Shown here piece after piece: positions 25,365 through 45,985 of a stretch of 47,164 nucleotides of DNA; the first letter of the stretch is position 1, and each line of letters opens with the position of its first letter. The stretch spans positions 1 through 47,164 of the forward strand of contig MIDA01000048.1 of the NCBI GenBank assembly GCA_001830045.1, written 5' to 3'. The notes beneath the pieces are model-generated. The model made no database searches, was not told the DNA's origin, and saw only the letters and a program-made list of their open reading frames with translations. The DNA comes from Tenericutes bacterium RIFOXYA12_FULL_35_10 (lineage in GTDB: Bacteria; Bacillota_I; Bacilli_A; Acholeplasmatales; Acholeplasmataceae). A program made the position numbers and the translations under genes.

Positions 25365-26627
25365 ATGCATGCTGATCGTATTATTTATCATATTAAATCG
25401 ATATATACATCCGAACAAGTGCCACCTGTTAAAGGAAAGAGCATGTCTTTGATCAAAGAGATTAAGGATGGATTTATCGCAATTAAAGATGGAAAAATAA
25501 TCGGTATCGGTGAAGGTGAAGGAGATTCATATATTCACTCTGAAACAGAACTGATTGATGCACATCAGATGATTATGATTCCTGGTCTAATCGATTCACA
25601 CACGCACCTTGTTCATGGTGGCTCAAGAGAATATGAGTATGAAAAACTTCAAAAAGGAACGCCTTACTTAGAGATTTTAAATCAAGGTGGTGGCATTTTA
25701 GGTACCGTGATGCATACCAGAAATGCAAGTTTTGAAGAACTCTATCATAAGGCTTATCACTCTTTAGATCTGATGATGACTTACGGTGTAACAACGGTTG
25801 AATCAAAGAGTGGTTATGGCCTATCTTTTGAGCATGAAACCAAACAACTGAGAGTGAATCAAAGACTTAATGATCATCATCCAATCAGAGTTTTATCAAC
25901 CTATATGGGTGCACATGCTGTCCCCAAAGAATATATAGGTAGAAAAAACGAATATATGTTATCGATGATGGAAGATATCAAAAAAATAAAGGATTTAGAA
26001 CTTGCAGAAGCGGTTGATGTTTTTTGTGAAGAAGGTGTTTTTTCGGTTGATGAGACAAACATGATTTTAGAACATGCAAAATCATTAGGTTATCAGATCA
26101 AGATGCACGCAGATGAAATACATCCACTCGGTGGTGCAGGACTTGGTGTTAAACTTGGGTGCAGTTCAGTTGATCATTTAATGGCCATCAAAAATGTAGA
26201 TATTGATCTTCTAGCGCAATCGAATACGGTTGCTAATGTCTTACCAGGAACGTCATTTTATTTAAAAAAAGGATATGCGAAGGCAAGAGAAATGATTGAT
26301 AGAGGTGTCGCATTATCTATTGCGGGGGATTATAACCCTGGATCTTGTCCGACAGAAAATTTTCAATTGATCATGCAACTCGCATCGAATCAAATGAAAC
26401 TGACTCCAGAGGAAGTTTTAACTGCTGTCACAATCAATCCCGCTTATCATTTAGGTTTATCATCATCTAAAGGTTCTTTAGAAGTTAGCAAGGATGCAGA
26501 TTTCGTCTTGCTTGATATCCCTAATTTAACGTATATGCTTTATCACTTTGGTATCAATCATACAAAAGATGTTTATATTAAAGGTAAAAAAGTGGTCAGT
26601 GACCAGAAAGTGGTGAAAAGTTTATGA
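25365..26627 (+). CDS. hutI: Imidazolonepropionase
   Basis: This 420-residue metal-dependent amidohydrolase opens imidazolonepropionate to formiminoglutamate. The metal-binding HxH is in IDSHTHLVHGG, followed by SREYEYEKLQKGTPY, a substrate-contact segment of HutI. Further metal ligands are in MHADEIHPLGGAGLG and the catalytic Asp in SIAGDYNPGSCP. It has an AAGGAGG ribosome site after ftcD, and its stop TGA overlaps the ATG of the cyclodeaminase gene (ATGA). Biochemically it acts before ftcD although it is encoded after it. Confidence 0.96.
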   Translation: MHADRIIYHIKSIYTSEQVPPVKGKSMSLIKEIKDGFIAIKDGKIIGIGEGEGDSYIHSETELIDAHQMIMIPGLIDSHTHLVHGGSREYEYEKLQKGTPYLEILNQGGGILGTVMHTRNASFEELYHKAYHSLDLMMTYGVTTVESKSGYGLSFEHETKQLRVNQRLNDHHPIRVLSTYMGAHAVPKEYIGRKNEYMLSMMEDIKKIKDLELAEAVDVFCEEGVFSVDETNMILEHAKSLGYQIKMHADEIHPLGGAGLGVKLGCSSVDHLMAIKNVDIDLLAQSNTVANVLPGTSFYLKKGYAKAREMIDRGVALSIAGDYNPGSCPTENFQLIMQLASNQMKLTPEEVLTAVTINPAYHLGLSSSKGSLEVSKDADFVLLDIPNLTYMLYHFGINHTKDVYIKGKKVVSDQKVVKSL

Positions 26628-27274
26628 GTAAGCTTATTGATTTATCGGTTCAATCATTTATTCATGAAGTTGATTCTAAATCACCGGCTCCAGGTGGTGG
26701 TAGTGTATCTGCACTGATGTCAGCTATGGGAGTTGCCCTCATGCGCATGGTAGGACACTTATCTGTTGATAAAAAGAAATTTTTAGCCTTAGATTCCAAA
26801 ATTCAATTTGAATTTAAAGATGTTGTAGAGTCACTTGAAGTTGTTAAAGAAGAGTTTATGCATCTGATCGATCAAGATACAGAAGCATTTAACCTCATTG
26901 TTAAAGCATATCAAATGCCAAAAAATACTGAAGAAGAAATCACAATGAGAAAAGAAAAAATTCAAGAAGGAACGATGAAAGCCATTATGGTTCCTCTAAA
27001 AGTAGCTACACTTTCTTTATCAGCTTTACATCAATTTGATTATATTTTAACTTATGGTAATAAACAAACCATTTCTGATTTAGGTGTCGCTACACTCTCA
27101 CTTTCTTCTGGCGCACTAGGTGCCATCATGAATGTGATGATTAATCTTCCAGGACTTGATGATGAGATTGCAAAAAAACAATTTTTATTCCAAGTTGAAG
27201 ACTTGAAACACAAGGTTGAAGAAGCAAGAGAAGATCTTCTTAAAAAGGTTTATCTTTCGCTTAATTCAAAGTAA
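26624..27274 (+). CDS. fchA: Formimidoyl-THF cyclodeaminase
   Basis: This 216-residue protein is a stand-alone version of the C-terminal half of FTCD. It converts 5-formimino-THF to 5,10-methenyl-THF and ammonia, so one-carbon units from histidine enter folate metabolism. The key motif is SPAPGGGSVSALMSAMG near the N-terminus; the rest is helical, with DQDTEAFN in the substrate region and a late DLGVATLSLSSGALGA segment. It overlaps hutI by 4 bases and is the last gene of the operon. No clear terminator follows; only a short stem without a T-run is seen. Confidence 0.92.
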   Translation: MSKLIDLSVQSFIHEVDSKSPAPGGGSVSALMSAMGVALMRMVGHLSVDKKKFLALDSKIQFEFKDVVESLEVVKEEFMHLIDQDTEAFNLIVKAYQMPKNTEEEITMRKEKIQEGTMKAIMVPLKVATLSLSALHQFDYILTYGNKQTISDLGVATLSLSSGALGAIMNVMINLPGLDDEIAKKQFLFQVEDLKHKVEEAREDLLKKVYLSLNSK

Positions 27275-27348: not shown

Positions 27349-27359
27349 AAAGTTAATCG

Positions 27360-27545
27360 AATCGACATGATGGTGCTGATGAAGCCTAACAGGGAATCAA
27401 GTGATAATCTTGAGCTGTCCCAGCAACCGTGATACGGACGAAATGCGAATGACCACTGCTAAAGCGGGAAGGTGCAGAGTAGGATGATGTTAAGCCGGGA
27501 GACCTACCACATATGTCAAAGCGAGTCATCTTCTGGGGTTGAGAA
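27360..27545 (+). ncRNA. Cobalamin riboswitch
   Basis: The conserved B12 box GCCGGGAGACCTACCAC is at 27494-27510. Upstream elements of the class are present in order: GGTGCTGATGAAGCC, GGGAATC, GAGCTGTCCCAGCAACCGTGA with the core, and GCGGGAAGG. The RNA precedes three genes that look like cobalamin uptake. A downstream TGGGGT (27534-27539) is complementary to ACCCCA (27577-27582) inside the terminator, giving a likely antiterminator, so B12 binding should reduce expression. Confidence 0.95.
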
Positions 27546-29875: not shown

Positions 29876-30103
29876 TTATGCTAACCAAACGAGTTTCTTG
29901 TAAAGGATTAATGAGATTGTATCAACAATCATAAAGAAGAAACCAAATGGGAAAACCAAGATACCAATAATGATTAATACGACATTATTTGTATCGATAC
30001 CTTTGACAATACGGTAAATACCCCAATACACACCCCATAATAGTGCAAGAAGAATCTTAATGATTAATGGTAAATCATCACTAAACTTGATAAAACTTTT
30101 CAT
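29876..30103 (-). CDS. Small two-helix membrane protein of unknown function
   Basis: This 75-residue protein has two hydrophobic segments (about residues 13-33 and 40-68) joined by a short polar loop with KGIDTNN. I do not recognise a named family; it is somewhat like small Pmp3/YqaE-type proteins but lacks their clear motif. It has a strong AGGAGG ribosome site, its own promoter and a terminator, so it is a genuine monocistronic gene. Confidence 0.7.
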   Translation of the reverse strand: MKSFIKFSDDLPLIIKILLALLWGVYWGIYRIVKGIDTNNVVLIIIGILVFPFGFFFMIVDTISLILYKKLVWLA

Positions 30104-30135
30104 TCGTTTATTCCTCCTATGTTCTTTATAACACT

Positions 30136-30164
30136 AGTATAGTCCTATTTTCTTAATTTGTAAA
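30136..30164 (-). promoter_or_regulatory. Promoter of the small membrane protein gene
   Basis: On the minus strand TTTACA (30159-30164), 17 spacer bases and TATACT (30136-30141) lie 33 bases upstream of the ATG at 30103. Confidence 0.75.
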
Positions 30165-30226
30165 TTGTTTAAACTGAAGATGAACAATCATCATTCACTT
30201 ACTTTCAGTAAAAGTTCGAAAAGTGA

Positions 30227-30256
30227 TTGACAGCGCTTTCATCGTTCGATTATAAT
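30227..30256 (+). promoter_or_regulatory. Lysine operon promoter with embedded cre site
   Basis: TTGACA (30227-30232), an 18-base spacer and TATAAT (30251-30256) form a consensus-hexamer promoter. The 14-mer TGACAGCGCTTTCA (30228-30241) matches the CcpA cre consensus TGWNANCGNTNWCA at every fixed position and overlaps the -35. CcpA binding here would block RNA polymerase, giving catabolite repression of lysine fermentation. Confidence 0.85.
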
Positions 30257-30262
30257 GAATAT

Positions 30263-30436
30263 AGATACGATACAGAGGTGCGATCTATTGTGTATGCCAT
30301 CAAATAAAGGAAGGGATATCCGCTTGATGGTTGAAGGAGTATGTCGCCGAAAGCTTAATGTGCATCCCCACATTAACCTTGATGATTGAGGAAACACCTC
30401 CTTCATTGCCATTTTAAACATAAATGGAGAGCTGTC
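30263..30436 (+). ncRNA. Lysine riboswitch (L box)
   Basis: The conserved L-box words occur in order: AGAGGTGCG (30274-30282), GGAAGGG (30309-30315), GTCGCCGAAAGC (30343-30354) and TGGAGAGC (30425-30432). Stems are visible: GCCATCAA/TTGATGG, TTAATGTG/CACATTAA, GAGG/CCTC and CCATTT/AAATGG (30409-30414 with 30422-30427). The weak closing stem would pair ACAG (30272-30275) with CTGT (30432-30435). It precedes lysine-degradation genes, and its 3' strand is shared with the terminator that follows. Confidence 0.88.
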
Positions 30437-30461
30437 CTTGACAGTGCTCCTATTTTTTTTT
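30426..30461 (+). terminator. Riboswitch-controlled terminator overlapping the aptamer
   Basis: GGAGAGCTGTC (30426-30436) pairs with GACAGTGCTCC (30440-30450), 11 positions with one mismatch and one wobble, followed by TA and nine T. Its 5' arm contains the conserved GGAG of the lysine aptamer and the 3' strand of the closing stem, so the aptamer fold and terminator are mutually exclusive. Confidence 0.85.
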
Positions 30462-30478
30462 GAAAAGAGGTTAGATGA

Positions 30479-30898
30479 ATGATTAAAAAATTTAAGATTG
30501 GTGACCAAAAAAGTTATGAACGCGTGATTACACAAGAAGAAGTTACGCAATTTGCAGCGATTACGGGTGATTTTAATTTAGCGCATTATGATGAAGATTT
30601 TTGTAAACGAACGATCTTTAAAAAGCCGATTGTTCACGGTATGTTTGTCGGATCTTTGTTTTCTAAAGTGTTTGGTATGGAATATCCAGGTGGAGGTATG
30701 ATTTATTGTACACAGAATTTAAAGTTTTTAAAACCTGTTTATCCCGACACAATGCTTAAAATTGTGATTACAGTGAAAGAGATTATTTTAGAGAAAAATC
30801 GCGTGATATTTACGACGGAAGTCTTTAACGATCTAGGTGAATGTGCAGTAACCGGTGAAGCCATGATGATGCCACGAAAAGAAAGCGACTGCTTATAG
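30479..30898 (+). CDS. MaoC-like (R)-specific enoyl-CoA hydratase
   Basis: This 139-residue hotdog-fold protein is of the PhaJ/MaoC type, which hydrates crotonyl-CoA to (R)-3-hydroxybutyryl-CoA. The catalytic dyad Asp31 and His36 is present in [10 protein letters not shown], at the same positions as in the Aeromonas enzyme. The following KKPIVHGMF segment is also typical. It is the first gene after the lysine riboswitch, with an AGAGG ribosome site 8 bases before the ATG. Because the lysine pathway makes crotonyl-CoA, it may divert some to 3-hydroxybutyryl-CoA; this role is inferred. Confidence 0.85.
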
Positions 30899-30917: not shown

Positions 30918-31310
30918 ATGATGAAAGTTACACATAAATTAAGATTATCTGAACATGATGCACATTATGGTGGTCATTTGGTTGATGGAGCAAGAGTTTT
31001 AGGTTTATTTGGTGATGTTGCGACTGAAATACTAATCAGACATGATGGTGATGAAGGTCTATTTAGAGCGTATGAAAAAGTTGATTTTTTAGCACCACTT
31101 TATGCAGGTGATTTTATTGAGGTTGAAGCAGAATTGATTTCAGTTGGAAAATCATCAAGAAAAATGCATTTCAAATGTTTTAAGATTATTACTGCAAGAC
31201 CAGATATCTCAGCATCAGCAGCGGATTTACTTGCTGAAAAGATTTTAGTCACTGAAGCGATTGGAACGTGCGTAGTTTTAGTTGATAAGATGAGAGGTCA
31301 TCATGAATAA
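30918..31310 (+). CDS. kal: 3-aminobutyryl-CoA ammonia-lyase
   Basis: This 130-residue hotdog-fold enzyme removes ammonia from L-3-aminobutyryl-CoA to give crotonyl-CoA, a late step of lysine fermentation. Signature segments are [26 protein letters not shown] and [13 protein letters not shown]. It overlaps kce by 8 bases. The ribosome site AAAGGAG precedes two adjacent ATG codons, and I use the first. Context within a full kam operon makes the call firm. Confidence 0.93.
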
Positions 31311-32127
31311 ACTGATCATTACATGCGCGATTTCTGGTGCAGAAGTGACCAAAAAAGATAATCCATATGTTCCATATACGATTCAAGAGATGGCAGAGGA
31401 AGCTTATCAGGCTTATAATGCAGGTGCAGCGATCATCCATCTACATGTAAGACATGATGATGGAAGACCAACACAAAGCAAATTACGCTATGAAAAAGCG
31501 ATTAAAGCGATTAAAAAGCGTTGTCCAGATGTCATTATTCAACCATCAACGGGTGGTGCTGTTGGGATGTCTCGTGATGAAAGACTAAAACCAACACTTT
31601 TGTCACCTGAAATGTGCACACTTGATTGTGGGACACTCAATTTTGGTGGTGATGATATCTTCGTCAATACTGAAAACGATATTAAGTATTTCGCACATCG
31701 CATTTATGAAAAGAGTATATTTCCTGAACTAGAGTGTTTTGAAAAAGGGCACATCGATTTAGTTTTAAGGCTTCATAAGAAAGGTTTTATAAAGACCCCC
31801 ATGCATTTCTCCTTTGTCTTAGGTGTTAATGGTGGAATGACAGGCGAAGAAAGAGATTTTCATTTTATGCGAGAAAGTATTCCTATGGATGCGACCTACA
31901 GTGTTGCAGGTATAGGGAAATATGAATTTTCTCTTGCAGAACTTTCTATCAAATATGGTGGTCACGTTCGCGTAGGATTAGAAGATAATTTATATCTTGA
32001 AAAAGGTGTTTTAGCAAAAGGTAATCAAGAACTGGTTGAAAAAGTTGTACAGATTGCAAAATCATATGGCAGAGAAATTGCTACACCTGATGAAGCGAGA
32101 CAAATCTTAGGATTAAGGAGAATATGA
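31303..32127 (+). CDS. kce: 3-keto-5-aminohexanoate cleavage enzyme
   Basis: This 274-residue zinc enzyme of the BKACE (DUF849) family reacts 3-keto-5-aminohexanoate with acetyl-CoA to give acetoacetate and 3-aminobutyryl-CoA. The metal-binding HxH is in [14 protein letters not shown], followed by [22 protein letters not shown] and HVRVGLEDN. The order kal-kce-kdd-kamA is that of lysine operons in Fusobacterium and related anaerobes. Its stop overlaps the kdd start by 4 bases (ATGA). Confidence 0.94.
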
Positions 32128-33161
32128 AGATGGCAGAATCACGTTTTGGTACACATCGCGTCATTGAACCTAAAGGAAGTTTACCGCAAGCTGCATTTTG
32201 TATTGATGCAACTCCAGTTTGTGGGGATACAGAGATTTTGATCGATGTCGATGTATTAAATATTGACAGTGCATCCTTTCATCAACTTAAAGAAGCTTGT
32301 AATCATGATGTTGATAAAATGAAACAGATGATTAAAGATATCGTTAAAGCACAGGGAAAAATGCAAAATCCAGTGACTAAAAGTGGGGGGATGCTCATTG
32401 GTACAGTAAGACAAGTGGGAAAACTTCACCATGATCAACATCTTCAAAAAGGGATGAAGATTGCTACATTGGTCTCTTTATCTTTAACACCGCTTTATAT
32501 TGAAGATATTCATGAGATTAACTTAACTAATGAACAGGTAAGTATCACTGGACAAGCTATTCTTTTCGATTCAGGAATCTATGCAGTGATACCTGATGAT
32601 ATGGATGAAAAACTTGTTTTAGCAGCACTTGATGTGTGCGGTGCACCTGCACAAGTGAAAAAACTTACAAAGTCAGGACAAACCGTGTTTATCATAGGTG
32701 CAGCAGGTAAATCAGGACTACTTTGTAGTTATGTCGCTAAAAAACAAGTGGGCAAAAAAGGTAAAGTCATCGGTTTAGTGAATGAAGAATCTCAAGTTAA
32801 ACTCTTAAAAGAGTTAGGCTATGTGGATGAGATCATTATGGAAAACGCACTAAACAGTGTTTCAGTTTATGAGCACATGATTAACATCACTGATGGTAAA
32901 TTGGCAGATTTAACCATCAATGTTGTTAATGTTCCTTCAACAGAAATGACATCGATTCTAGCAACCAAAGATGAAGGGATTGTTTATTTCTTTAGTATGG
33001 CAACATCATTTACAAAAGCAGCTTTAGGAGCTGAAGGCGTTGGAAAAGATGTCACCATGATGATTGGTAATGGATATACCAAAGATCATGCTGAAATCAC
33101 CTTAAATTTATTTAGAGAAAATAAACAACTCTACGATTTATTCATGAAGAAATACGCATAG
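32124..33161 (+). CDS. kdd: L-erythro-3,5-diaminohexanoate dehydrogenase
   Basis: This 345-residue NAD(P)-dependent enzyme oxidatively deaminates 3,5-diaminohexanoate to 3-keto-5-aminohexanoate. The N-terminus FGTHRVIEPKGSLPQAA is characteristic. An alcohol-dehydrogenase-like Rossmann segment VFIIGAAGKSGLLCSYVA lies in the middle. The N-terminal catalytic domain contains ATPVCGDTEILIDVDVLNID. It is coupled to kce by a 4-base overlap and followed by kamA after 10 bases. Confidence 0.94.
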   Translation: MKMAESRFGTHRVIEPKGSLPQAAFCIDATPVCGDTEILIDVDVLNIDSASFHQLKEACNHDVDKMKQMIKDIVKAQGKMQNPVTKSGGMLIGTVRQVGKLHHDQHLQKGMKIATLVSLSLTPLYIEDIHEINLTNEQVSITGQAILFDSGIYAVIPDDMDEKLVLAALDVCGAPAQVKKLTKSGQTVFIIGAAGKSGLLCSYVAKKQVGKKGKVIGLVNEESQVKLLKELGYVDEIIMENALNSVSVYEHMINITDGKLADLTINVVNVPSTEMTSILATKDEGIVYFFSMATSFTKAALGAEGVGKDVTMMIGNGYTKDHAEITLNLFRENKQLYDLFMKKYA

Positions 33162-33171
33162 GGAGAGACGT

Positions 33172-34437
33172 ATGAAATTAAATTTAAACGAAAGTTATTT
33201 AGCACGAAAAAAAGCTTATTTTGGACACGTCAGTGAAGAAGAATGGAATGACTGGAAATGGCAGACAGCACATCGCATTCGTAACGCTGAAGAGTTAAAA
33301 AAATATGTTCCATTAACTAAGGATGAAGAAGATACGATTCATCGTATTTTAGGCCATTTAAGAATGGCGATTACACCTTATTATTTAACTCTAATTGACC
33401 CTGAAGATCCAAGTTGTCCGATCAGACAACAAGCTGTTCCTTTTAGCGGTGAACTAATTCAAGGAAAAAATGATTTACTTGATCCACTCCATGAAGACCA
33501 TGATTCACCCGTACCTGGATTAACACATCGTTATCCTGATCGCGTTTTATTTTTGATTACAGATATGTGTTCGATGTATTGTCGTCATTGTACAAGAAGA
33601 CGATTTGCTGGTCAAAAAGATGGTGAAATGAAGTTAGAAAATATTGATCGAGCAATCAACTACATTAAAGAACACGAAGAAGTCAATGACGTTTTACTTT
33701 CTGGTGGGGATGCGTTTATGGTAAGTGATGAACGCATTGAATATATTTTAAAAAAATTAAGAGAAATCGATCACGTGCAAGTGATTCGTTTTGGTACAAG
33801 AACACCCGTTGTTATGCCACAAAGAGTTACTGATAAGTTAGTCGATATGCTTAAAAAGTACCATCCTATTTGGGTTAATGTTCATTTTAATCACCCGAAT
33901 GAGATCACACCCGAATCTAAAGCAGCAATTGATAAGTTAGTCAATGCGGGCATTCCTGTAGGTAATCAATCAGTTTTACTCAAAGGGGTTAATGATTGTG
34001 TGCATATTATGAGAAAACTGGTTAAAGGATTAATAGCTATCCGAGTAAGACCATATTACATCTATCAATGTGATTTATCCTTTGGTATTGAACATTTTAG
34101 AACAAGTGTCTCTAAAGGTATTGAAATTATTGAAGGTTTAAGAGGACACATTTCAGGTTTAGCAATTCCAACGTTTGTTGTTGATGGACCTAATGGCGGT
34201 GGAAAGATTCCTGTGATGCCAAACTATGTGATCTCACAAGCACCTGGTAAAGTTGTACTTAGAAACTATGAAGGTGTGATGACCACGTACAGTGAACCAG
34301 ACACTTATATTTCAGAATGTCAATGTGAGGATTGTAAAAAAGAAAAGCTCGATGGAATTAGTGGCATGTTACAGGGTAACCGTATTTCAATGGAACCTGA
34401 GTTTTTAAAACGTAAAGATCGGATGAAACATGATTAA
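33172..34437 (+). CDS. kamA: L-lysine 2,3-aminomutase
   Basis: This 421-residue radical-SAM and PLP enzyme converts L-lysine to L-beta-lysine, the first step of lysine fermentation. The radical-SAM cysteines are Cys133, Cys137 and Cys140 in DMCSMYCRHCTRR. Substrate and PLP elements include LLSGGDAFM, the GTRTPV motif and YIYQCDLSFG. The C-terminal CQCEDC motif is the usual zinc-binding tail. Length matches clostridial KamA (416). It overlaps kamB by 8 bases. Confidence 0.97.
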   Translation: MKLNLNESYLARKKAYFGHVSEEEWNDWKWQTAHRIRNAEELKKYVPLTKDEEDTIHRILGHLRMAITPYYLTLIDPEDPSCPIRQQAVPFSGELIQGKNDLLDPLHEDHDSPVPGLTHRYPDRVLFLITDMCSMYCRHCTRRRFAGQKDGEMKLENIDRAINYIKEHEEVNDVLLSGGDAFMVSDERIEYILKKLREIDHVQVIRFGTRTPVVMPQRVTDKLVDMLKKYHPIWVNVHFNHPNEITPESKAAIDKLVNAGIPVGNQSVLLKGVNDCVHIMRKLVKGLIAIRVRPYYIYQCDLSFGIEHFRTSVSKGIEIIEGLRGHISGLAIPTFVVDGPNGGGKIPVMPNYVISQAPGKVVLRNYEGVMTTYSEPDTYISECQCEDCKKEKLDGISGMLQGNRISMEPEFLKRKDRMKHD

Positions 34438-35419
34438 CCTTTTAGGTCACTGCAAGACAATAGGTATTGTTGGTCTTGCAAAAAATACGGGTAAAACAAC
34501 AACACTCAACTATTTGATTCAAAACTATCAACACCAGATTCTTGGCTTAACTTCGATCGGTTTAGATGGAGAAGAAATCGATCAAGTTAACTTTCTTCCT
34601 AAACCTCGAATTAAGGTTTTTCCTGGAATGGTGGTTGCAACTTCAGCTGAGTGTTTAAATCAAACAGACGTTTCTTTTCAAGTGATTAAAGAGACATCTT
34701 TTCAAACTGCATTGGGTAAAGTCTTTATGGTAAAGGCTTTAACAGAAGGTTTTATCATGCTAGCAGGACCAACAACCAATAAAGAACTCAACCAGTTGAT
34801 TGAGATGATGAAACTCTATACAGATATGATCTTTGTCGATGGAGCATTATCTAGAATGACATTTTCTGCAATCTCTGAACTTGATGGTATCGTGTTAGCA
34901 ACAGGTGCAGCTTTCTCAGAAGAAATGTCAGAAACCATCATGAAGACAGAGCATGTCATCAAAACGTTTAGTTATGATCTTACGCAAAGAGATATCAATG
35001 ATAAATTCTCGTTTTTTGCAGAATGCGATCATGAATCTTATCCGTTGGCCCATAAAAAATATGAGGAGATAAAAGGTATATTGCATCAGATAAAAGATAG
35101 GGTAAAGTGGGTATACATTAAAGGTGCAATCACTGAAAAGATGATTCAAATGTTCATCGATCTTAGAATTAATCATTTTGAACTTGTTATTGACGATCCA
35201 GCAAAACTTTTATTTCATCATCACTATGCAGATGTATTTGATAAACTCCATATACATGTAACTGTAAGAAAGAAATGTCCTCTTGTCTTGATCACGGTAA
35301 ATCCGTATCGACCTGTAGGAACATCCTATGATCCTTTTGTATTTGAAAAAATGATTAAAGCATTAACCGATATCAATGTCATCAATGTGAAGCGCGTGGA
35401 GGTAAACAATGGAAAATAA
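34430..35419 (+). CDS. kamB: KamB, predicted lysine 5,6-aminomutase reactivase subunit
   Basis: This 329-residue protein occupies the kamB position between kamA and kamD. It has a P-loop near its N-terminus (VGLAKNTGKTTT) and a Walker-B-like MIFVDGAL. In known kam operons KamB acts with an ATPase, KamC, to renew the damaged B12 cofactor of lysine 5,6-aminomutase. Here no kamC follows; kamD starts directly with an 11-base overlap. The family assignment rests on position and P-loop rather than on long motifs, so confidence is moderate. Confidence 0.8.
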   Translation: MINLLGHCKTIGIVGLAKNTGKTTTLNYLIQNYQHQILGLTSIGLDGEEIDQVNFLPKPRIKVFPGMVVATSAECLNQTDVSFQVIKETSFQTALGKVFMVKALTEGFIMLAGPTTNKELNQLIEMMKLYTDMIFVDGALSRMTFSAISELDGIVLATGAAFSEEMSETIMKTEHVIKTFSYDLTQRDINDKFSFFAECDHESYPLAHKKYEEIKGILHQIKDRVKWVYIKGAITEKMIQMFIDLRINHFELVIDDPAKLLFHHHYADVFDKLHIHVTVRKKCPLVLITVNPYRPVGTSYDPFVFEKMIKALTDINVINVKRVEVNNGK

Positions 35420-36977
35420 ACTATTATTAAATCAAGAAACGATTGCATCATGTAGAAAAGATGCAAAAAAGATTGCAGATCAAGTTCAATCTTATATTGA
35501 TAAGCATACAACCGTTGCTGTTGAAAGAACGGTTTTAAGATTGCTTGGTATTGATGGTGTTGATGAATTTGGAAGACCACTCGTCAATGCGGTCATTGAT
35601 CACATTGTCGAAAAGGCAGACCTTTCTTTAGGTGTATCTCACTACATGCATTATGCAGTTAAAGAAAGTGAAGAAACACCACAAGAAATCAGTCGTAGAA
35701 TTGCTAATAAAACACTAGACTTATCCGTATATCAAACGTATTCACCAGTAATCAAACACGATGCTCTTCAACCTTTTATCGAAAAAACATTAGCTAGAGT
35801 GGATGCGATGAAAGAGTTAAGAAAAGGCTGGATTGAAAGAACAGGAAAAAAAGATACACCGAGTAAATATGTGATTGTAGCAACAGGTAATATCTATGAA
35901 GATATGAAACAAGCCGTATCAGCAGCTAAAAAAGGTGCTGATATCATTGCGGTCATCAGAAGTACTGGACAATCACTTTTAGACTATGTTCCCTTTGGAG
36001 CAACCACAGAGGGCTTTGGTGGAACATATGCAACTCAAGAAAACTTTAGATTAATGCGTCAAGCATTAGATCAAGTATCTGAAGAAGAAAATCGTTATAT
36101 CAAACTTGTTAATTACGCATCCGGATTATGCATGCCTGAAATCGCTGCGATGGGTGCAATTGAACGTCTTGATATGATGTTAAATGATTCTCTATATGGC
36201 ATTATTTTTAGAGACATTAATATGAAAAGAACTTTAGTCGATCAATATTTTTCGCGGGTGATTTCAAGTTACGCTGAAATTATCATTAACACCGGAGAAG
36301 ATAATTATTTAACGACGTCCGATGCATTTGATCACGCGCATACCGTTTTAGCATCACAGTTTATTAATGAACAGTTCGCTAAAAATGCAGGTATGAAAGA
36401 ATCACTGATGGGTTTAGGACATGCATATGAAATTGATCCAAATATGGAGAATAGTTTTTTATATGAACTGGCTCAAGCTGAAATGGCAAGAGAAATCTTT
36501 CCAAATTCTCCTTTAAAATATATGCCACCAACAAAACATATGACTGGTGATATTTTCAAAGGATGTGTTCAAGATGCACTTTTTAATGCAGTATCTGTAT
36601 CTACGAAACAGTCCATACATTTACTGGGTATGATGACAGAAGCGATTCATACGCCGTTTATGAGTGATCGTGCGATTGCTTTAAATATTGCATCCTATAT
36701 TGAAAAAGCGTTTAAAAATTTTGGTGACGATATCCAATTTAAACCAGATGGTATCATTGTTAAACGTGCACAAGATGTTTTATCTAAAGCATGGCATCTT
36801 CTTAAGGAAATTAAGGAAGAGGGATTGTTTAAAGCTTTAGAAAAAGGACGATTTGCAGAGATTTCTCGCAAAGAAGATGGAGGAAAAGGGCTCCATGGTG
36901 TTTTTTTAAAACATCAAAACTACCAAAACCCAATCCTTGACTTACTTAAATCGCGTATGAAGGAGGGATCAAGATGA
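35409..36977 (+). CDS. kamD: Lysine 5,6-aminomutase alpha subunit
   Basis: This 522-residue subunit forms the TIM-barrel catalytic part of the B12- and PLP-dependent aminomutase that turns beta-lysine into 3,5-diaminohexanoate. Family segments include TVAVERTVLRLLGIDGVDE, IAVIRSTGQSLLDYVPFGAT, the YIKLVNYASGLCMPEIA block and MPPTKHMTGDIF. Length agrees with the clostridial alpha subunit (about 516). The ribosome site is GGAGG. It overlaps kamE by 4 bases, fitting a fixed stoichiometry. Confidence 0.96.
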   Translation: MENKLLLNQETIASCRKDAKKIADQVQSYIDKHTTVAVERTVLRLLGIDGVDEFGRPLVNAVIDHIVEKADLSLGVSHYMHYAVKESEETPQEISRRIANKTLDLSVYQTYSPVIKHDALQPFIEKTLARVDAMKELRKGWIERTGKKDTPSKYVIVATGNIYEDMKQAVSAAKKGADIIAVIRSTGQSLLDYVPFGATTEGFGGTYATQENFRLMRQALDQVSEEENRYIKLVNYASGLCMPEIAAMGAIERLDMMLNDSLYGIIFRDINMKRTLVDQYFSRVISSYAEIIINTGEDNYLTTSDAFDHAHTVLASQFINEQFAKNAGMKESLMGLGHAYEIDPNMENSFLYELAQAEMAREIFPNSPLKYMPPTKHMTGDIFKGCVQDALFNAVSVSTKQSIHLLGMMTEAIHTPFMSDRAIALNIASYIEKAFKNFGDDIQFKPDGIIVKRAQDVLSKAWHLLKEIKEEGLFKALEKGRFAEISRKEDGGKGLHGVFLKHQNYQNPILDLLKSRMKEGSR

Positions 36978-37729
36978 GTTCTAAATCAACATGGGTACGT
37001 CCTTATGGGGATACCGAAAATGATGGAAAAATTCAGATTTCATTTTCACTTCCAGTACCAGTATCACCACTAGGTGAAGAGGCTGCTAAAAAGATAGCTT
37101 TACAAATGGGGATTCATGATCCGAGTGTCGTTCATTATGAAGCATTATCAGATACGTTTAGTTTTTATATTCTCTATGGTAGAACGGAACATCAAGTAGA
37201 CATTGCGAATTTAAATGTGGTTGAAGTAGACCATCATACGATGAGTAAAGAAGATGTTGAGGTATACATTGAAAAAAATTTCACTGAACCACTCGTTTTT
37301 GTAGGTGCATCAACAGGAACTGACGCACACACGGTTGGTATTGATGCCATCATGAATATGAAGGGCTACAATGGTCATTATGGACTTGAACGCTATAAAG
37401 GAATTAAAGCGTATAATTTAGGTGGACAAGTTGATAATGAAACACTTTTAGAAAAAGCGATTGATTTGAATGCAGATGTGATTCTTATTAGTCAGACAGT
37501 AACTCAAAAAGATGTTCACATTGAAAACTTAACCAAATTCATTGAATTACTCGAAGCTGAAAATAAACGAAACGACTTTGTTGTTATCATTGGTGGTCCA
37601 CGTATTCATCATGGACTTGCAAAAGAATTAGGTTATGATGCTGGATTTGGTCCGAAAAAATATGCTTTTGATGTCGCTTCATATGCGGTTCAATACTTAT
37701 ATGAAAAAGGTGTGAAGGTTAAAAGATAG
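36974..37729 (+). CDS. kamE: Lysine 5,6-aminomutase beta subunit
   Basis: This 251-residue subunit carries the Rossmann B12-binding domain and the PLP lysine. The cobalamin motif D-x-H-x-x-G is Asp117, His119 and Gly122 in TGTDAHTVGIDAIM, followed by KGYNGHYGLERYKG and the late VVIIGGPRIHHGLAKELGYD. The N-terminus contains WVRPYGDTENDGKIQISFSL, typical of KamE. It ends the contiguous lysine cluster; the next gene starts about 60 bases later. Confidence 0.96.
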   Translation: MSSKSTWVRPYGDTENDGKIQISFSLPVPVSPLGEEAAKKIALQMGIHDPSVVHYEALSDTFSFYILYGRTEHQVDIANLNVVEVDHHTMSKEDVEVYIEKNFTEPLVFVGASTGTDAHTVGIDAIMNMKGYNGHYGLERYKGIKAYNLGGQVDNETLLEKAIDLNADVILISQTVTQKDVHIENLTKFIELLEAENKRNDFVVIIGGPRIHHGLAKELGYDAGFGPKKYAFDVASYAVQYLYEKGVKVKR

Positions 37730-37791
37730 TTTGAGTCATTTTGAGGTATGGTAAAATAGAGATATACCTCATCAGGAAGTGGGGATGTTTG

Positions 37792-38388
37792 TTGAAACGT
37801 ATATTACACTTTAAAGCGTTTATCATACCTGCGATCTATTTTGTGGTGATGGCAGAAATAGCCACATGGAACTCGCCGGAACTTTTTTCACGTGTTCATC
37901 ACACATTTTCGGTTTTAGGTGCACAAGCATTCGATCAAGCGTGGCTGATGAATACGTGTTGGATTGGCTTTGGAGTGTTAGTTTTGATCATAACATCGAT
38001 GTATCACCAAAAAGAAGATCTACCACTTGCGATTACCTATCCCATTATTGCTTTTGCGATTTCTGTTATTTTGATTGGTATTTGGCGAAGTGATTCTGGT
38101 TTAGTCCAAGCATCGACTGATATTGATGAAGCTAAAGACCACCTCATTTTCTATACGATTGGTTTAGGATCAATCATACTTGGCATCATTTTACATGCAC
38201 TCATGTCCCAATCTAAAAAAATGAAGTATATGCATCTTATGTTTGGCATTCTGATGGTGATATTGATGACATTACTTTATGCAACCTCACACTACCAAGG
38301 TCTATTTGATCGATTATTGTGGGCAGTCATTCTGGTATGGCTTTCCTCTATGTTTGGAAGGATGGAAACACATGGCAACCTCAGTTGA
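37792..38388 (+). CDS. DUF998-like membrane protein
   Basis: This protein of about 198 residues has five to six hydrophobic helices. The layout, with an early NSPELFSRVHHTFSVLGAQ and a later GIWRSDSGLVQAS, resembles DUF998 integral membrane proteins of unknown function. The start is uncertain: I favour the TTG at 37792 with GTGGGG 7 bases upstream. A TTG at 37741 would add 17 residues and overlap a TAAAAT that looks like a -10. It overlaps the next gene by 17 bases. Confidence 0.6.
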   Translation: MKRILHFKAFIIPAIYFVVMAEIATWNSPELFSRVHHTFSVLGAQAFDQAWLMNTCWIGFGVLVLIITSMYHQKEDLPLAITYPIIAFAISVILIGIWRSDSGLVQASTDIDEAKDHLIFYTIGLGSIILGIILHALMSQSKKMKYMHLMFGILMVILMTLLYATSHYQGLFDRLLWAVILVWLSSMFGRMETHGNLS

Positions 38389-38698
38389 TTTTAAAGATTA
38401 TATGGAAGATCAATGTAGGGGTCTTGGTGATGTCAGATTTAAAAAAATGTTTGGTGAATATGGACTTTTCTACAGAGAAAAAATGGTTGGTGTTTTAGCA
38501 GACAATAAGCTCTATATAAAACCTACGGATGAAGGTAAAACATTAGTAAAAGATGTTGTTATGGAAAAGTTTTATGAACAAGGAAACCCCTATTTTTTAA
38601 TTGAAGATACTGATGATCGTGATCTTTTATGGAAACTGATCATCAAGACATATGAAGTATTACCAGCACGAGTTGAAAAGAAAAGGAAAATGAGGTAG
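38372..38698 (+). CDS. TfoX N-terminal domain protein
   Basis: This 108-residue protein matches the TfoX_N family by VRFKKMFGEYGLFYREKMVGVLADNKLYIKPT and a C-terminal segment in which PYFLIEDTDDRDLLWKLI replaces the usual end. TfoX proteins are linked to competence regulation in some bacteria, but single-domain versions are widespread and their role is not known. The start at 38372 overlaps the membrane gene and has GGAAG about 11 bases upstream. pduO follows after 4 bases. Confidence 0.78.
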   Translation: MATSVDFKDYMEDQCRGLGDVRFKKMFGEYGLFYREKMVGVLADNKLYIKPTDEGKTLVKDVVMEKFYEQGNPYFLIEDTDDRDLLWKLIIKTYEVLPARVEKKRKMR

Positions 38699-38702
38699 GC
38701 AT

Positions 38703-39203
38703 ATGAAGATCTATACAAAACGAGGAGATCAAGGACAAACAGATTTATTTAATAAACGCGTTAGTAAAGCGGATTTACATATCATGGTTAACGGTTCAAT
38801 GGATGAAGCAATGGCGTTTTTGATCATGGGTAAACATTACATGAGAGTACCTGAAGTCATTTCAGACATTGATACTATTCACGGTCATTTATTTTCTATT
38901 GCGCATGAGATTGCGTTAAACGATCCTGCGAAAGCAATCACAAAAGAAAGTGATGTTTTGTGGTTAGAAAAAAGATTGGATCATTACGATTCATTTTTAG
39001 AACCGCTCACCAAATTTATTAAACTTGATCAAACGAAAGCAGCATCTTGGCTTAACCTAGCAAGAGTGACTGTAAGACGCGCTGAAAGAGAACTCGTCAT
39101 GCTTGCTCATGAACAAGATATCAATACGTATACACTTCAATATATCAACCGTTTATCTGACTATTTATTTACGGTAGCTAGATACTTCGATGAAGTCAAA
39201 TAA
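38703..39203 (+). CDS. pduO: PduO-type cob(I)alamin adenosyltransferase
   Basis: This 166-residue enzyme transfers the adenosyl group of ATP to cob(I)alamin, making the coenzyme needed by KamDE, OraSE and NrdJ. Motifs are the N-terminal KIYTKRGDQGQTDLF with RVSKAD, the central TVRRAERELV with its conserved arginines, and the C-terminal YINRLSDYLFTVARY. The N-terminal half is divergent: the usual YGxVDELNS segment reads NGSMDEAMAFL. It lies between the lysine and ornithine clusters, the two local users of its product. Confidence 0.88.
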   Translation: MKIYTKRGDQGQTDLFNKRVSKADLHIMVNGSMDEAMAFLIMGKHYMRVPEVISDIDTIHGHLFSIAHEIALNDPAKAITKESDVLWLEKRLDHYDSFLEPLTKFIKLDQTKAASWLNLARVTVRRAERELVMLAHEQDINTYTLQYINRLSDYLFTVARYFDEVK

Positions 39204-39215
39204 AGGAGGGATGTC

Positions 39216-40259
39216 ATGAATAAAATTAGAGTTATTATTTGGGGATTTGGTGCCATGGGCAAGGGCATGGCTCAAATGCTTCTCATGAAAAAAGGTGTTG
39301 AAATCGTTGGCATCTGTGATTTAAATCCAAGTTTAATTGGTAGAAATTTTGCGGATGTCCTTGAAGTTCAAACAGATCATCCTAAAGTTTATATTTCTGA
39401 TCAAATCGATCTTTTACTACAACATCAAAAAGCTGATATTGTCTTACTTTGCACAGATAGCTTTGTTAAAGGTGCTTTCGAAAAAATAAAGAAGATTGTT
39501 ACGTACAAAGTGAATGTGATTTCTACTGCAGAAGAAATGGCATATCCCATGGCTTCAGAACCTGAACTCGCTAAACAGATTGATCATTTAGCGAAAGCTT
39601 TTGGTGTCACAGTTTTAGGTACAGGTATAAATCCAGGATTTATTATGGATTTATTAGTAGTTGCACTCACAGGAACCATGGTTGATGTCAAGTTTATTGA
39701 AGCGAAAAGAATTAACTCACTATCACCTTTTGGACCCACAGTGATGAGGGAACAAGGTGTTGGTGATTCACTGGATGAATATCATCATCGAGTTGCTGAA
39801 AAAGAACTCGCTGGACATGTTGGATTTAATGAATCAGTTCATATGATTGCGGATGCTTTGGGTATTAAACTTGACGAATTTACACAACAGATGGAGCCTA
39901 TCGTAACTGAGATTGACCGTAAGAGTACTTATGGTGAAGCTAAAGCAGGTCATTTAGCAGGCATTAATATGACGGGTCAAGGATTGGTGAATGGGGATGT
40001 ATTCATTAACATGATTCATCCGCAGCAGATCGAACCTGAATCAGCAGGTATTCAAACAGGCGATTACATCAACTTAAAAGGTACGCCAAACATTCATATG
40101 TCGATCACACCAGAGATTAATGGTGGTGTTGGAACGATTGCGATGTGTGTGAATATGATTCCCCATGTTTTAAACGCGAAACCAGGTTTGAAAACGATGA
40201 TTGATCTACCCGTACCACGTGCTATTTTAGGTGATATGAGAGATTTACTCGATCGTTAA
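39216..40259 (+). CDS. ord: 2,4-diaminopentanoate dehydrogenase
   Basis: This 347-residue NAD(P)-dependent enzyme oxidatively deaminates 2,4-diaminopentanoate to 2-amino-4-ketopentanoate in ornithine fermentation. It has an N-terminal Rossmann motif (IIWGFGAMGKGMA), and the middle domain contains LGTGINPGFIMDLLVVALTG, diagnostic for this family of dihydrodipicolinate-reductase-like dehydrogenases. It has an AAAGGAGG ribosome site 12 bases after pduO. It is separated from ortA by a terminator and a new promoter, so it belongs to the transcript ending pduO-ord. Confidence 0.93.
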   Translation: MNKIRVIIWGFGAMGKGMAQMLLMKKGVEIVGICDLNPSLIGRNFADVLEVQTDHPKVYISDQIDLLLQHQKADIVLLCTDSFVKGAFEKIKKIVTYKVNVISTAEEMAYPMASEPELAKQIDHLAKAFGVTVLGTGINPGFIMDLLVVALTGTMVDVKFIEAKRINSLSPFGPTVMREQGVGDSLDEYHHRVAEKELAGHVGFNESVHMIADALGIKLDEFTQQMEPIVTEIDRKSTYGEAKAGHLAGINMTGQGLVNGDVFINMIHPQQIEPESAGIQTGDYINLKGTPNIHMSITPEINGGVGTIAMCVNMIPHVLNAKPGLKTMIDLPVPRAILGDMRDLLDR

Positions 40260-40274
40260 TAGCAGCCATCTTTG

Positions 40275-40306
40275 AAGGAAATCTATAATAAAAGATTTCC
40301 TTTTTT
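40275..40306 (+). terminator. Terminator after ord
   Basis: A 9-bp perfect stem (AAGGAAATC with GATTTCCTT) around a 10-nt loop ends in a run of T (40301-40306). Confidence 0.88.
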
Positions 40307-40309
40307 GTT

Positions 40310-40354
40310 TTTTTAACCGATAGTCTATACAAAATCGGTTAAAAATGATATCAT
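40310..40354 (+). repeat. Inverted repeat plus palindrome upstream of ortA
   Basis: A perfect 12-bp inverted repeat (TTTTTAACCGAT at 40310-40321, ATCGGTTAAAAA at 40334-40345) with a 12-base spacer is followed directly by the palindrome ATGATATCAT (40345-40354). No T-run follows, so it is not a terminator. Its place just upstream of the ortA promoter suggests a regulator site. Confidence 0.6.
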
Positions 40355-40382
40355 TGAGATAGGTAAGCGCTTTCAATTTATG
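40354..40382 (+). promoter_or_regulatory. Putative ortA operon promoter with cre-like site
   Basis: GGTAAGCGCTTTCA (40362-40375) fits the cre consensus TGWNANCGNTNWCA except at the first base. It lies within the spacer of a weak promoter candidate, TTGAGA (40354-40359), 17 bases, TTTATG (40377-40382). The arrangement resembles the lysine promoter, where cre also overlaps the core promoter. Confidence 0.55.
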
Positions 40383-40418
40383 GGTTCCTTTTTTTATGTG
40401 TAACGGAGGAAATAAATC

Positions 40419-40715
40419 ATGATTGATCAAAAAACATATGTCGAGATTTATCGCATCATACTACCGATTGAAGAAAGATCTTCAAATCTACCGAGTGATA
40501 CAAAACGGGTTCCTTTTGAGATGAGATTAAGAGGAAGACTTGTTTCTCCAGCGGAACTGGGTGATATGGTTGAAATTGAGACAGCATCAAAACGCATTGA
40601 AAAAGGGATTTTGGTTGCAGTGAATCCCTTCTTTAACCATAACTATGGGCATTATGTTTTGATGTTAACTGAAGTTCGTGATGTCATTTTAAGCGAAACG
40701 GAGGATCTTATATGA
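40419..40715 (+). CDS. ortA: 2-amino-4-oxopentanoate thiolase alpha subunit
   Basis: This 98-residue small subunit works with OrtB to cleave 2-amino-4-ketopentanoate with CoA into D-alanine and acetyl-CoA. Family features are the N-terminal YVEIYRIILPIEERSSNLP, KRVPFEMRLRGRL and the G-rich DMVEIET region, with NPFFNHNYGHYV near the end. The ribosome site is GGAGG. It overlaps ortB by 4 bases. The order ortA-ortB-oraS-oraE matches clostridial ornithine clusters. Confidence 0.92.
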   Translation: MIDQKTYVEIYRIILPIEERSSNLPSDTKRVPFEMRLRGRLVSPAELGDMVEIETASKRIEKGILVAVNPFFNHNYGHYVLMLTEVRDVILSETEDLI

Positions 40716-42109
40716 GCTACCAAGATGTAATGAATCAAAAAAATGAGATCATGCGCAAAGCTTTACAGATGAACTATGATCAGTTTGAAGGACCAGGCAT
40801 TGGTTTTGATTATGAGAAGATGATGGCATCTTCTGGGTATACCTTAGAAGATGTGATTCGAATTCAAAAAGAAAATAACATTGGTAGTACACCAATGATT
40901 GAGTTAAAAAGACTATCTGCATACGCTAGAAAGTTTGCAAAACCAGGATATGGGGCACGTATATTCTTAAAAGATGAATCTCAAAATTTATCGGGTTCAT
41001 TTAAAGCAAGAAGAGCTGCGATGTCCATCTATCAAGCAAAGAAACTGGGATTTAAAGGCGTGATTGCTGCTACATCAGGAAACTATGGTGCTGCAGTTGC
41101 TGCACTAGCAGCACGTCAAGGTTTGAAATGTATTATCGTGCAAGAATGCTACGATTCAAATGGGGTTGGACAACCTGAAATCATTGAAAAAGCGAGAGCT
41201 TGTCAAGCATATGGTGCTGAAGTGGTTCAGCTATCGGTGGGACCTGAACTTTTTTATCAGTTTTTAGTGCTATTAAAAGAAACAGGTTATTTTAATGCAT
41301 CCCTTTACTCTCCTTATGGTGTTATGGGTATTGAAACGTTAGGTTATGAAATTGCGAAAGATATGCATGAAAAAGAAGGAAAATATCCTGAAGCTGTTAT
41401 TTGTACGAATGCCGGTGGTGGTAATTTAACAGGTACAGCAAGAGGACTTAAAAAAGCTGGAGCTACTGATACAAAGATTATTGCAGCAAGCGTAGATTTA
41501 TCCGGTCTTCATATGGCATCCGATCATGATTTCAATTTAAAATCATTTACAACTGGTCATACAGGATTTGGTATTCCTTTTTCAACATTTCCAGATCGAA
41601 GCGATGTTCCCAGAAGTGCTGCAAGACCCTTAAGATATATGGATTATTACGGGTTAGTCAATCAGGGATCAGTATTTTTTATTACTGAAGCGTTAGCGAT
41701 TTTAGAAGGTATGGAAAGAGGTCCAGCAGGTAATACGAGTTTAGCACTTGCCTTTAGTCTTGCTCAAGAAATGAAAGATGATGAGATCATTGTCGTACAA
41801 GAAACAGAGTATACAGGTGCTGGTAAACATATGAATGCTCAAATCTCATTTGCGAGTGATCGTGGTGTTGAACTTCTTATGGGTAACCCTTTAGATGAAA
41901 AACCAGGAAAAAACTTGATCTTTCCTTCATCAGGAGCAATGTTAAAACATAAGGAAGTTTCACTAGATCATTTGAGAACAAGTTATTTAAAACGATATCA
42001 AGAGACGATGCTATTTCACTCAGATTATGAATACCTTGCACTTGAACTTAAAACAACAATAGAGCACGTTAAAAAACTCATGGAGGACTTAAATGAAGCC
42101 AAGAATTGA
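40712..42109 (+). CDS. ortB: 2-amino-4-oxopentanoate thiolase beta subunit (PLP-dependent)
   Basis: This 465-residue subunit is a fold-type II PLP enzyme related to threonine synthase. The PLP lysine is expected in SGSFKARRA, with a TSGNYGAAVAA phosphate and substrate loop and the glycine-rich NAGGGNLTGTARG. With OrtA it performs a thiolase-like cleavage unusual for PLP enzymes, giving D-alanine and acetyl-CoA. Its 3' end overlaps oraS by 17 bases, so the genes are coupled. Confidence 0.94.
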   Translation: MSYQDVMNQKNEIMRKALQMNYDQFEGPGIGFDYEKMMASSGYTLEDVIRIQKENNIGSTPMIELKRLSAYARKFAKPGYGARIFLKDESQNLSGSFKARRAAMSIYQAKKLGFKGVIAATSGNYGAAVAALAARQGLKCIIVQECYDSNGVGQPEIIEKARACQAYGAEVVQLSVGPELFYQFLVLLKETGYFNASLYSPYGVMGIETLGYEIAKDMHEKEGKYPEAVICTNAGGGNLTGTARGLKKAGATDTKIIAASVDLSGLHMASDHDFNLKSFTTGHTGFGIPFSTFPDRSDVPRSAARPLRYMDYYGLVNQGSVFFITEALAILEGMERGPAGNTSLALAFSLAQEMKDDEIIVVQETEYTGAGKHMNAQISFASDRGVELLMGNPLDEKPGKNLIFPSSGAMLKHKEVSLDHLRTSYLKRYQETMLFHSDYEYLALELKTTIEHVKKLMEDLNEAKN

Positions 42110-42452
42110 TGACTTTAATGAACGAAGAAAACACTTAGCAAAGATGAGTGATGCTGAACTGAAAGCTTATTTTGAAAAACTTACGGATCAAATGATTGAT
42201 CCACTTTTAGAACTCGCATATACGCATACGACACCAGCGATTGAACGAAGTGTATTGATGCGTATGGGTTTTTCAAGCTTAGAAGCAAAAACGTTAACTG
42301 AAAAAATGATGGATTATCATCTTTTAGAACATGGTGTAGGTCATGTTGTTATGCGTTATGCAACATTACATGGTTTATCTATGAGAGATGCAGGTTTAAA
42401 ACTGATTGAAGATAGCAACGAACTAAACAAACTTGCGGAGGCATTTAAATGA
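42093..42452 (+). CDS. oraS: D-ornithine 4,5-aminomutase S subunit
   Basis: This 119-residue small subunit pairs with OraE. Recognisable segments are DFNERRKHLAKMSDAELKAYFE, ERSVLMRMGFSS and LLEHGVGHVVMRYA. Its length agrees with the clostridial OraS (about 121). It has a GGAGG ribosome site inside the end of ortB and overlaps oraE by 4 bases. Confidence 0.93.
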   Translation: MKPRIDDFNERRKHLAKMSDAELKAYFEKLTDQMIDPLLELAYTHTTPAIERSVLMRMGFSSLEAKTLTEKMMDYHLLEHGVGHVVMRYATLHGLSMRDAGLKLIEDSNELNKLAEAFK

Positions 42453-45980: not shown

Positions 45981-45985
45981 CCCTC

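Follow-up and report, generated by a model that had tools for sequence, protein, structure and literature searches.

Organisation of the locus

The window analysed here is the whole of contig MIDA01000048.1 (47,164 nucleotides), one of the 106 contigs in the 2.05 Mb draft genome of Tenericutes bacterium RIFOXYA12_FULL_35_10. A lysine riboswitch was identified on its forward strand, followed in the 3′ direction by genes in the order maoC-kal-kce-kdd-kamA-kamB-kamD-kamE. The genes and the element that closes the unit were located as follows.

30479–30898, + strand: maoC-like hydratase, first gene (PF01575, 72.5 bits)
30918–31310, + strand: kal, 3-aminobutyryl-CoA ammonia lyase (NF052388, above cut-off)
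31303–32127, + strand: kce, 3-keto-5-aminohexanoate cleavage enzyme (NF052387, above cut-off)
32124–33161, + strand: kdd, 3,5-diaminohexanoate dehydrogenase (NF052381, above cut-off)
33172–34437, + strand: kamA, lysine 2,3-aminomutase (TIGR03820, above cut-off)
34430–35419, + strand: kamB, reactivase subunit of lysine 5,6-aminomutase (NF052386, above cut-off)
35409–36977, + strand: kamD, lysine 5,6-aminomutase alpha (NF052384, above cut-off)
36974–37729, + strand: kamE, lysine 5,6-aminomutase beta (NF052385, above cut-off)
37741–40259, + strand: DUF998, TfoX_N, cobalamin adenosyltransferase and ord (family searches)
40274–40303, + strand: terminator-like hairpin

From kal onward, the family matches identify these as predicted lysine-fermentation genes, in agreement with the initial annotation, which had taken the downstream genes to degrade lysine. 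Among the matches listed, the closest named kce genes belong to Acholeplasmataceae assemblies. The DUF998, TfoX_N, cobalamin adenosyltransferase and ord genes are probably co-transcribed with the kal operon, the spacing being consistent with a single transcript, and the hairpin at 40274–40303 likely marks the end of the lysine-fermentation transcription unit. The ornithine-degradation genes ortA, ortB, oraS, oraE, or-4 and orr come after this unit.

Amidohydrolase and formiminotransferase-cyclodeaminase genes were found upstream (25365–27274) and ornithine-degradation genes downstream (39216–47038), which suggests that the locus is an amino-acid fermentation island. A cobalamin riboswitch (84 bits, window positions 27354–27524) was observed 5′ of a gene for DUF4430 and one resembling an ECF transporter (below cut-off). 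It neighbours the B12-dependent lysine and ornithine aminomutase genes, and the same riboswitch was present upstream in 5 of the 9 loci scanned. In the relative L074 (2155–3499), two CoA-transferase subunit genes, which the window does not have, are situated between maoC and kal; similarly sized ORFs occupy the maoC-kal gap in L078, L063, L066 and L073.

Promoter and aptamer

The leader ahead of maoC contains the following features.

30227–30256, + strand: sigma-70 promoter TTGACA-N18-TATAAT (12 of 12 hexamer matches)
30228–30241, + strand: cre-like site TGACAGCGCTTTCA, overlapping the −35 box (match to TGWNANCGNTNWCA)
30265–30442, + strand: lysine riboswitch aptamer (RF00168, 71.5 bits)
30272–30275, + strand: P1 5′ strand, ACAG (RF00168 alignment and MFE)
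30426–30450, + strand: intrinsic terminator hairpin (−13.9 kcal/mol including the two bases after it; in the MFE structure of RNA 30263–30452)
30432–30435, + strand: P1 3′ strand, CUGU, common to aptamer and terminator (RF00168 alignment, terminator fold and MFE)
30453–30461, + strand: terminator T run of nine T (sequence)
30465–30470, + strand: likely ribosome-binding site AAGAGG (sequence, by eye)

The RF00168 match was full length (model positions 1–182 of 182) and far exceeded the gathering score of 30. The alignment ends the P5 3′ strand at 30427, assigns 30428–30431 (AGAG) to J5/1 and gives a closing stem P1 of four base pairs (ACAG/CUGU), the two outer pairs of the model being mismatched (model 3′ strand 30432–30437); a stem of about 4–5 bp had been estimated initially. 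The five-helix fold closed by P1 was the MFE structure of RNA 30263–30437. The segments AGAGGUGC and GCCGAA were intact, while conserved model positions were altered at two places (UGG to UGA, and the internal-loop AGUA to UGUA). A plasmid search with the leader returned no match.

The region contained three promoter-like sites, which does not exceed the mean of 3.4 in shuffles; the promoter hexamers and their spacing were identical in 29 of 29 homologous leaders. Transcription would start at about 30263. As the promoter ends at 30256, there is almost no RNA 5′ of the aptamer and thus no space for an antiterminator upstream.

Terminator and the two folding states

The terminator 5′ arm (30426–30436) consists of GGAGAGCUGUC, which comprises the last two P5 bases, the whole of J5/1 and the P1 3′ strand. 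It is followed by a loop (30437–30439) and a 3′ arm (30440–30450) with one A-G mismatch and one G-U pair, so that the RNA reads GGAGAGCUGUC-CUU-GACAGUGCUCC, then UA and nine U. The inner part of this hairpin (30431–30445) was the sole terminator-like site reported by the scanner in 29900–30700 (shuffle mean 0.3), and no later, separate terminator after the aptamer was reported in that interval. The terminator thus uses the 3′ strand of the aptamer as its own 5′ arm, whereas in an OFF-type L box this strand would pair with the 5′ arm of a separate terminator farther downstream; the closing stem and the terminator use a common strand, as in an ON-type switch, and exclude each other because the terminator 5′ arm includes the P1 3′ strand.

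Folding of successive transcripts gave both states. In RNA ending at 30437 the MFE structure was the L-box fold with P1, and in RNA ending at 30452 it was the terminator, with P1 and P5 lost. When the pairs were enforced, the P1 state was ahead by 2.1 kcal/mol at an RNA end of 30443 and the terminator was ahead by 2.7 kcal/mol at 30445 and by 7.8 kcal/mol at 30452, in energies that exclude tertiary contacts and lysine. The switch would therefore decide while only a few bases are being added, and this indicates that it may be under kinetic control. Given the lead of the terminator at 30452, lysine would have to work kinetically or through contacts outside the model, and the switch could leak or respond sluggishly. 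The initial annotation had proposed that a terminator arm at 30426–30436 takes up the 3′ strand of the closing stem. These limits proved exact, the RF00168 alignment places the paired P1 3′ strand (30432–30435) inside them, and the terminator replaces P1 on extension of the RNA.

Translational control was also considered and is unlikely, since the likely ribosome-binding site, as judged by eye, falls outside both hairpins.

The second lysine riboswitch of the genome

The genome encodes a second lysine riboswitch (RF00168), here called L002, which precedes an ABC transporter binding protein. Its first gene matched SBP_bac_3 above the cut-off, and the best NCBIfam match was a lysine/arginine/ornithine binding protein, below the cut-off. 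In the free fold of L002 (−63.8 kcal/mol) the terminator 5′ arm is occupied by the aptamer GGCGCU; enforcing P1 (−55.6 kcal/mol) lets the terminator form. These modelled folds are those of the classic OFF design, and the predicted logic is opposite to that of the window riboswitch.

Leaders of the operon in related genomes

Of 150 related genomes, 110 gave an RF00168 match in a search with a quick filter, whose misses are no evidence of absence, and 30 gave a KCE match, the source genome included. A total of 136 riboswitch sites were parsed, and 21 of them precede the lysine-fermentation operon. For nine of the 30 kce genomes no riboswitch was initially reported, an artefact of the search filter: eight of the nine do have it, and in the ninth (G019) kce lies at a contig edge. 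The aptamer was accordingly present before the operon in 29 of 29 related genomes with upstream sequence. In one of these (G018) the riboswitch and maoC are on a different contig from kce, and another (G011) has a run of N in the expression platform and was excluded from the terminator counts, leaving 28 readable leaders.

Each site was examined for a terminator that uses the aptamer 3′ end as its 5′ arm; a strict rule further limited the hairpin to at most 36 nt with few bulges. The comparison set comprised 115 other lysine riboswitches, which are the sites detected by the search rather than all that exist. Under the loose rule the overlap was seen in 28 of 28 operon leaders (20 + 8) versus 11 of 115 others (Fisher 4e-21), and under the strict rule in 27 of 28 (19/20 + 8/8) versus 0 of 115 (Fisher 3e-28). 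The sole strict-rule miss, L072, has a hairpin extended to 37 nt. The hairpins of the 11 loose-rule positives were all 42–49 nt long (an earlier version of the rule flagged eight); a separate compact terminator is additionally present at six of these sites and, by the rule, absent at five. We read these hairpins, by eye, as putative antiterminators above a small terminator. A shuffle test for OFF-type antiterminators was weak, with 40 of 118 sites standing out.

The first genes of the other 115 riboswitches were sorted into clusters, of which one member each was searched by family. Fifty-nine cluster with the L002 ABC binding protein, 52 with lysA (member searched 427.5 bits, above cut-off) and four were unread. 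Judged from the leaders, expression platforms within one genome group split near-perfectly by gene function.

Covariation of the shared strand

Across 49 leaders with an overlapping hairpin, P1 was present in the MFE structure of the aptamer alone in 40 (absent in nine), and the terminator appeared once the hairpin was added in 45 (absent in four). At position −9, the shared strand has G in 37 leaders and A in 12, and the P1 pair shifts from C-G to U-A accordingly; the terminator pair at this position was G-C in 33, A-U in nine and other or unpaired in seven. At a J5/1 position not included in P1, 33 leaders have A and 16 have C; the terminator base opposite is U (32) or G (13), with four unpaired. 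The pair partners in these 49 leaders were taken from the folds, and the pairing is therefore partly by construction. When 43 distinct ACAG-type hairpins were aligned, 95.6% of the cells paired versus 92.4% in the best of 1000 shuffles; two hairpin pairs were changed on both sides, a number reached by 497 of the 1000 shuffles.

Distant leaders

KCE was detected in 24 of the 392 genomes of a phylum sample, 17 of them new, and an RF00168 match lay upstream of kce on the same strand in 15 of the 17. Near kce of G169 Rfam gave no RF00168 match, but a riboswitch can be seen by eye in its sequence L336. Named kce loci numbered at least 80 among the matches listed, and 50 were searched. RF00168 was found in 34 of these 50 named genomes and not found in 16, which include Bacteroidales, archaea and some Clostridia. 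By coordinates, 21 named matches were taken as upstream of kce; one (L255) was removed because its match was on another contig, and the remaining 20, together with the 15 from the phylum sample, formed a distant set of 35 leaders.

The terminator overlap was present in 29 of these 35 leaders by the loose rule and in 23 by the strict rule (absent in 6 and 12, respectively). The strict rule detected it in none of 14 other lysine riboswitches from the phylum sample, and the loose rule in three. Some Clostridium leaders appear to pair the P1 3′ strand with a segment that could influence a later terminator, which would also give ON logic.

In the Clostridia leaders L293 and L277, the cassette of P5 3′ end, J5/1, P1 3′ strand and terminator appears, by eye, to be present twice in tandem, and it would seem as if the polymerase must pass two terminators. 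In L279, a second CAUGAAGCGCUAUUG segment pairs with P1 better than the choice of the model, again by eye; this leader may have a P5 insertion, in which case P1 and the terminator would overlap there as well.

A cre-like site at the promoter

The sequence TGACAGCGCTTTCA matches exactly TGWNANCGNTNWCA, which we take to be the cre consensus. It is the sole match in the window (0.25 expected), and since at least one match occurred in 23 of 100 shuffles, the evidence for the site rests on its conservation. All 29 leaders carry the 14-mer at the −35 box (27 identical, two with one change), and the other spacer bases vary. A match occurred in 1 of 128 other lysine-riboswitch promoters with readable upstream DNA and in 14 of 34 distant kce leaders. 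The genome encodes an HPr kinase (346.6 bits, above cut-off); the best CcpA-like protein scored 289.7 bits, below the cut-off of 442.35, and the next match scored 163. The position of the site on the −35 box in every leader points to a combined input, and suggests an operon that is on when lysine is present and no preferred sugar is.

Proposed mechanism and alternatives

The window element is very likely a lysine-ON transcriptional riboswitch. The analysis shows the anatomy, the mutually exclusive predicted folds with their conservation and the contrast to leaders of uptake and synthesis genes; from these we infer that lysine is the ligand, as well as the direction of the response, the kinetic control and the binding of CcpA. 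The polymerase would start at about 30263 and transcribe the aptamer first. Without lysine, the newly made 3′ arm would capture GGAGAGCUGUC, the terminator would form and transcription would stop at the T run. With lysine bound, the binding core and P1 would retain the same segment, the terminator would be blocked and the polymerase would continue into the lysine-fermentation operon. In the presence of preferred sugars, the promoter would probably be repressed through the cre-like site by a CcpA-like protein. Since P1 and the terminator exclude each other and upstream RNA is nearly absent, lysine should turn on maoC-kal-kce-kdd-kamA-kamB-kamD-kamE. The initial annotation had predicted an ON switch, and this interpretation is supported by the two-state folds, the near-absent RNA before the aptamer, the lysine-fermentation genes and the strict-rule overlap in the operon leaders against none elsewhere in the related genomes.

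Lysine riboswitches usually work as OFF switches, and the fold predicted for L002 is of this type. An ordinary lysine-OFF switch, in which an unseen antiterminator keeps the terminator open until lysine binds, is nevertheless highly unlikely here: the RNA between promoter and aptamer is almost nil, lysine binding would consume the terminator's own arm, the free fold of the full leader contains the terminator and no antiterminator, and the downstream genes degrade lysine. Equally improbable is an ON switch of the same mechanism whose ligand is not L-lysine but a relative such as beta-lysine or some other intermediate. The kal operon produces such intermediates and the aptamer differs at the conserved UGG and AGUA positions, but it still scores 71.5 bits to RF00168 with AGAGGUGC and GCCGAA unchanged. 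A constitutive terminator behind a decayed aptamer, with expression set by the promoter alone, would fit the short P1, the far greater stability of the terminator in the model and the near-invariant cre-like site, but is scarcely credible, as an aptamer without use would decay and this one is full length in 29 of 29 relatives (G011 partly N) and precedes kce in 15 of 17 further genomes of the phylum sample.

Beyond the lysine-ON riboswitch itself, we favour with moderate confidence a natural and conserved two-input gate, in which CcpA-like repression under sugar is combined with a lysine-ON riboswitch whose terminator takes J5/1 and the P5 end, in a genome whose second lysine riboswitch has the opposite sign.

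Comparison with known systems

Barrick and Breaker (2007) state, citing Rodionov (2003), that certain lysine riboswitches of ON logic bury pieces of the terminator stem, and in Mukherjee (2017) the kal/kce genes that follow lysine riboswitches are classed as positively regulated. From these statements, the lysine-ON kind is already known as a prediction; the ON logic of glycine and adenine riboswitches is likewise in print. The predicted kal/kce riboswitches of Clostridium sticklandii, Fusobacterium nucleatum and Thermoanaerobacter share the aptamer class, the gene function and the proposed logic with the window element. They belong to other lineages, and the published passages name no Acholeplasmataceae case, no comparison of opposite logics in the same genomes and no cre-like site. 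In the literature searched, which includes passages of PMC5584792, PMC2258182, PMC9337991, PMC3766115, PMC11477304, PMC7160235 and PMC7707468 and covers subscription papers thinly, neither an experimental test of a natural lysine-ON riboswitch nor a cre site beside one was found.

The initial annotation had missed two points, namely that ON-type lysine riboswitches were already published and that the promoter carries a conserved cre-like site, which is an addition to it. New here are the near-perfect split of platforms by gene function in one genome group, the conserved cre-like site and the extension to the Acholeplasmataceae. The anatomy allows the sign of lysine control to be deduced and compared with 115 lysine riboswitches that precede other genes in these genomes, so that the old lysine-ON prediction becomes directly testable on a short template. 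The two logics in one genome illustrate the reuse of an aptamer with only the downstream part changed, and a natural lysine-ON part could double as a lysine sensor.

The classic OFF L box is of the B. subtilis lysC type. L002, as an example of it, has the same aptamer class (RF00168) as the window element; in L002, however, the aptamer GGCGCU is predicted to form an antiterminator with the terminator 5′ arm, whereas in the window P1 and the terminator compete directly. In the adenine pbuE and glycine ON riboswitches, ligand binding withholds a strand of the terminator. The window element is alike in this respect, while the aptamer, the ligand and the genes differ.
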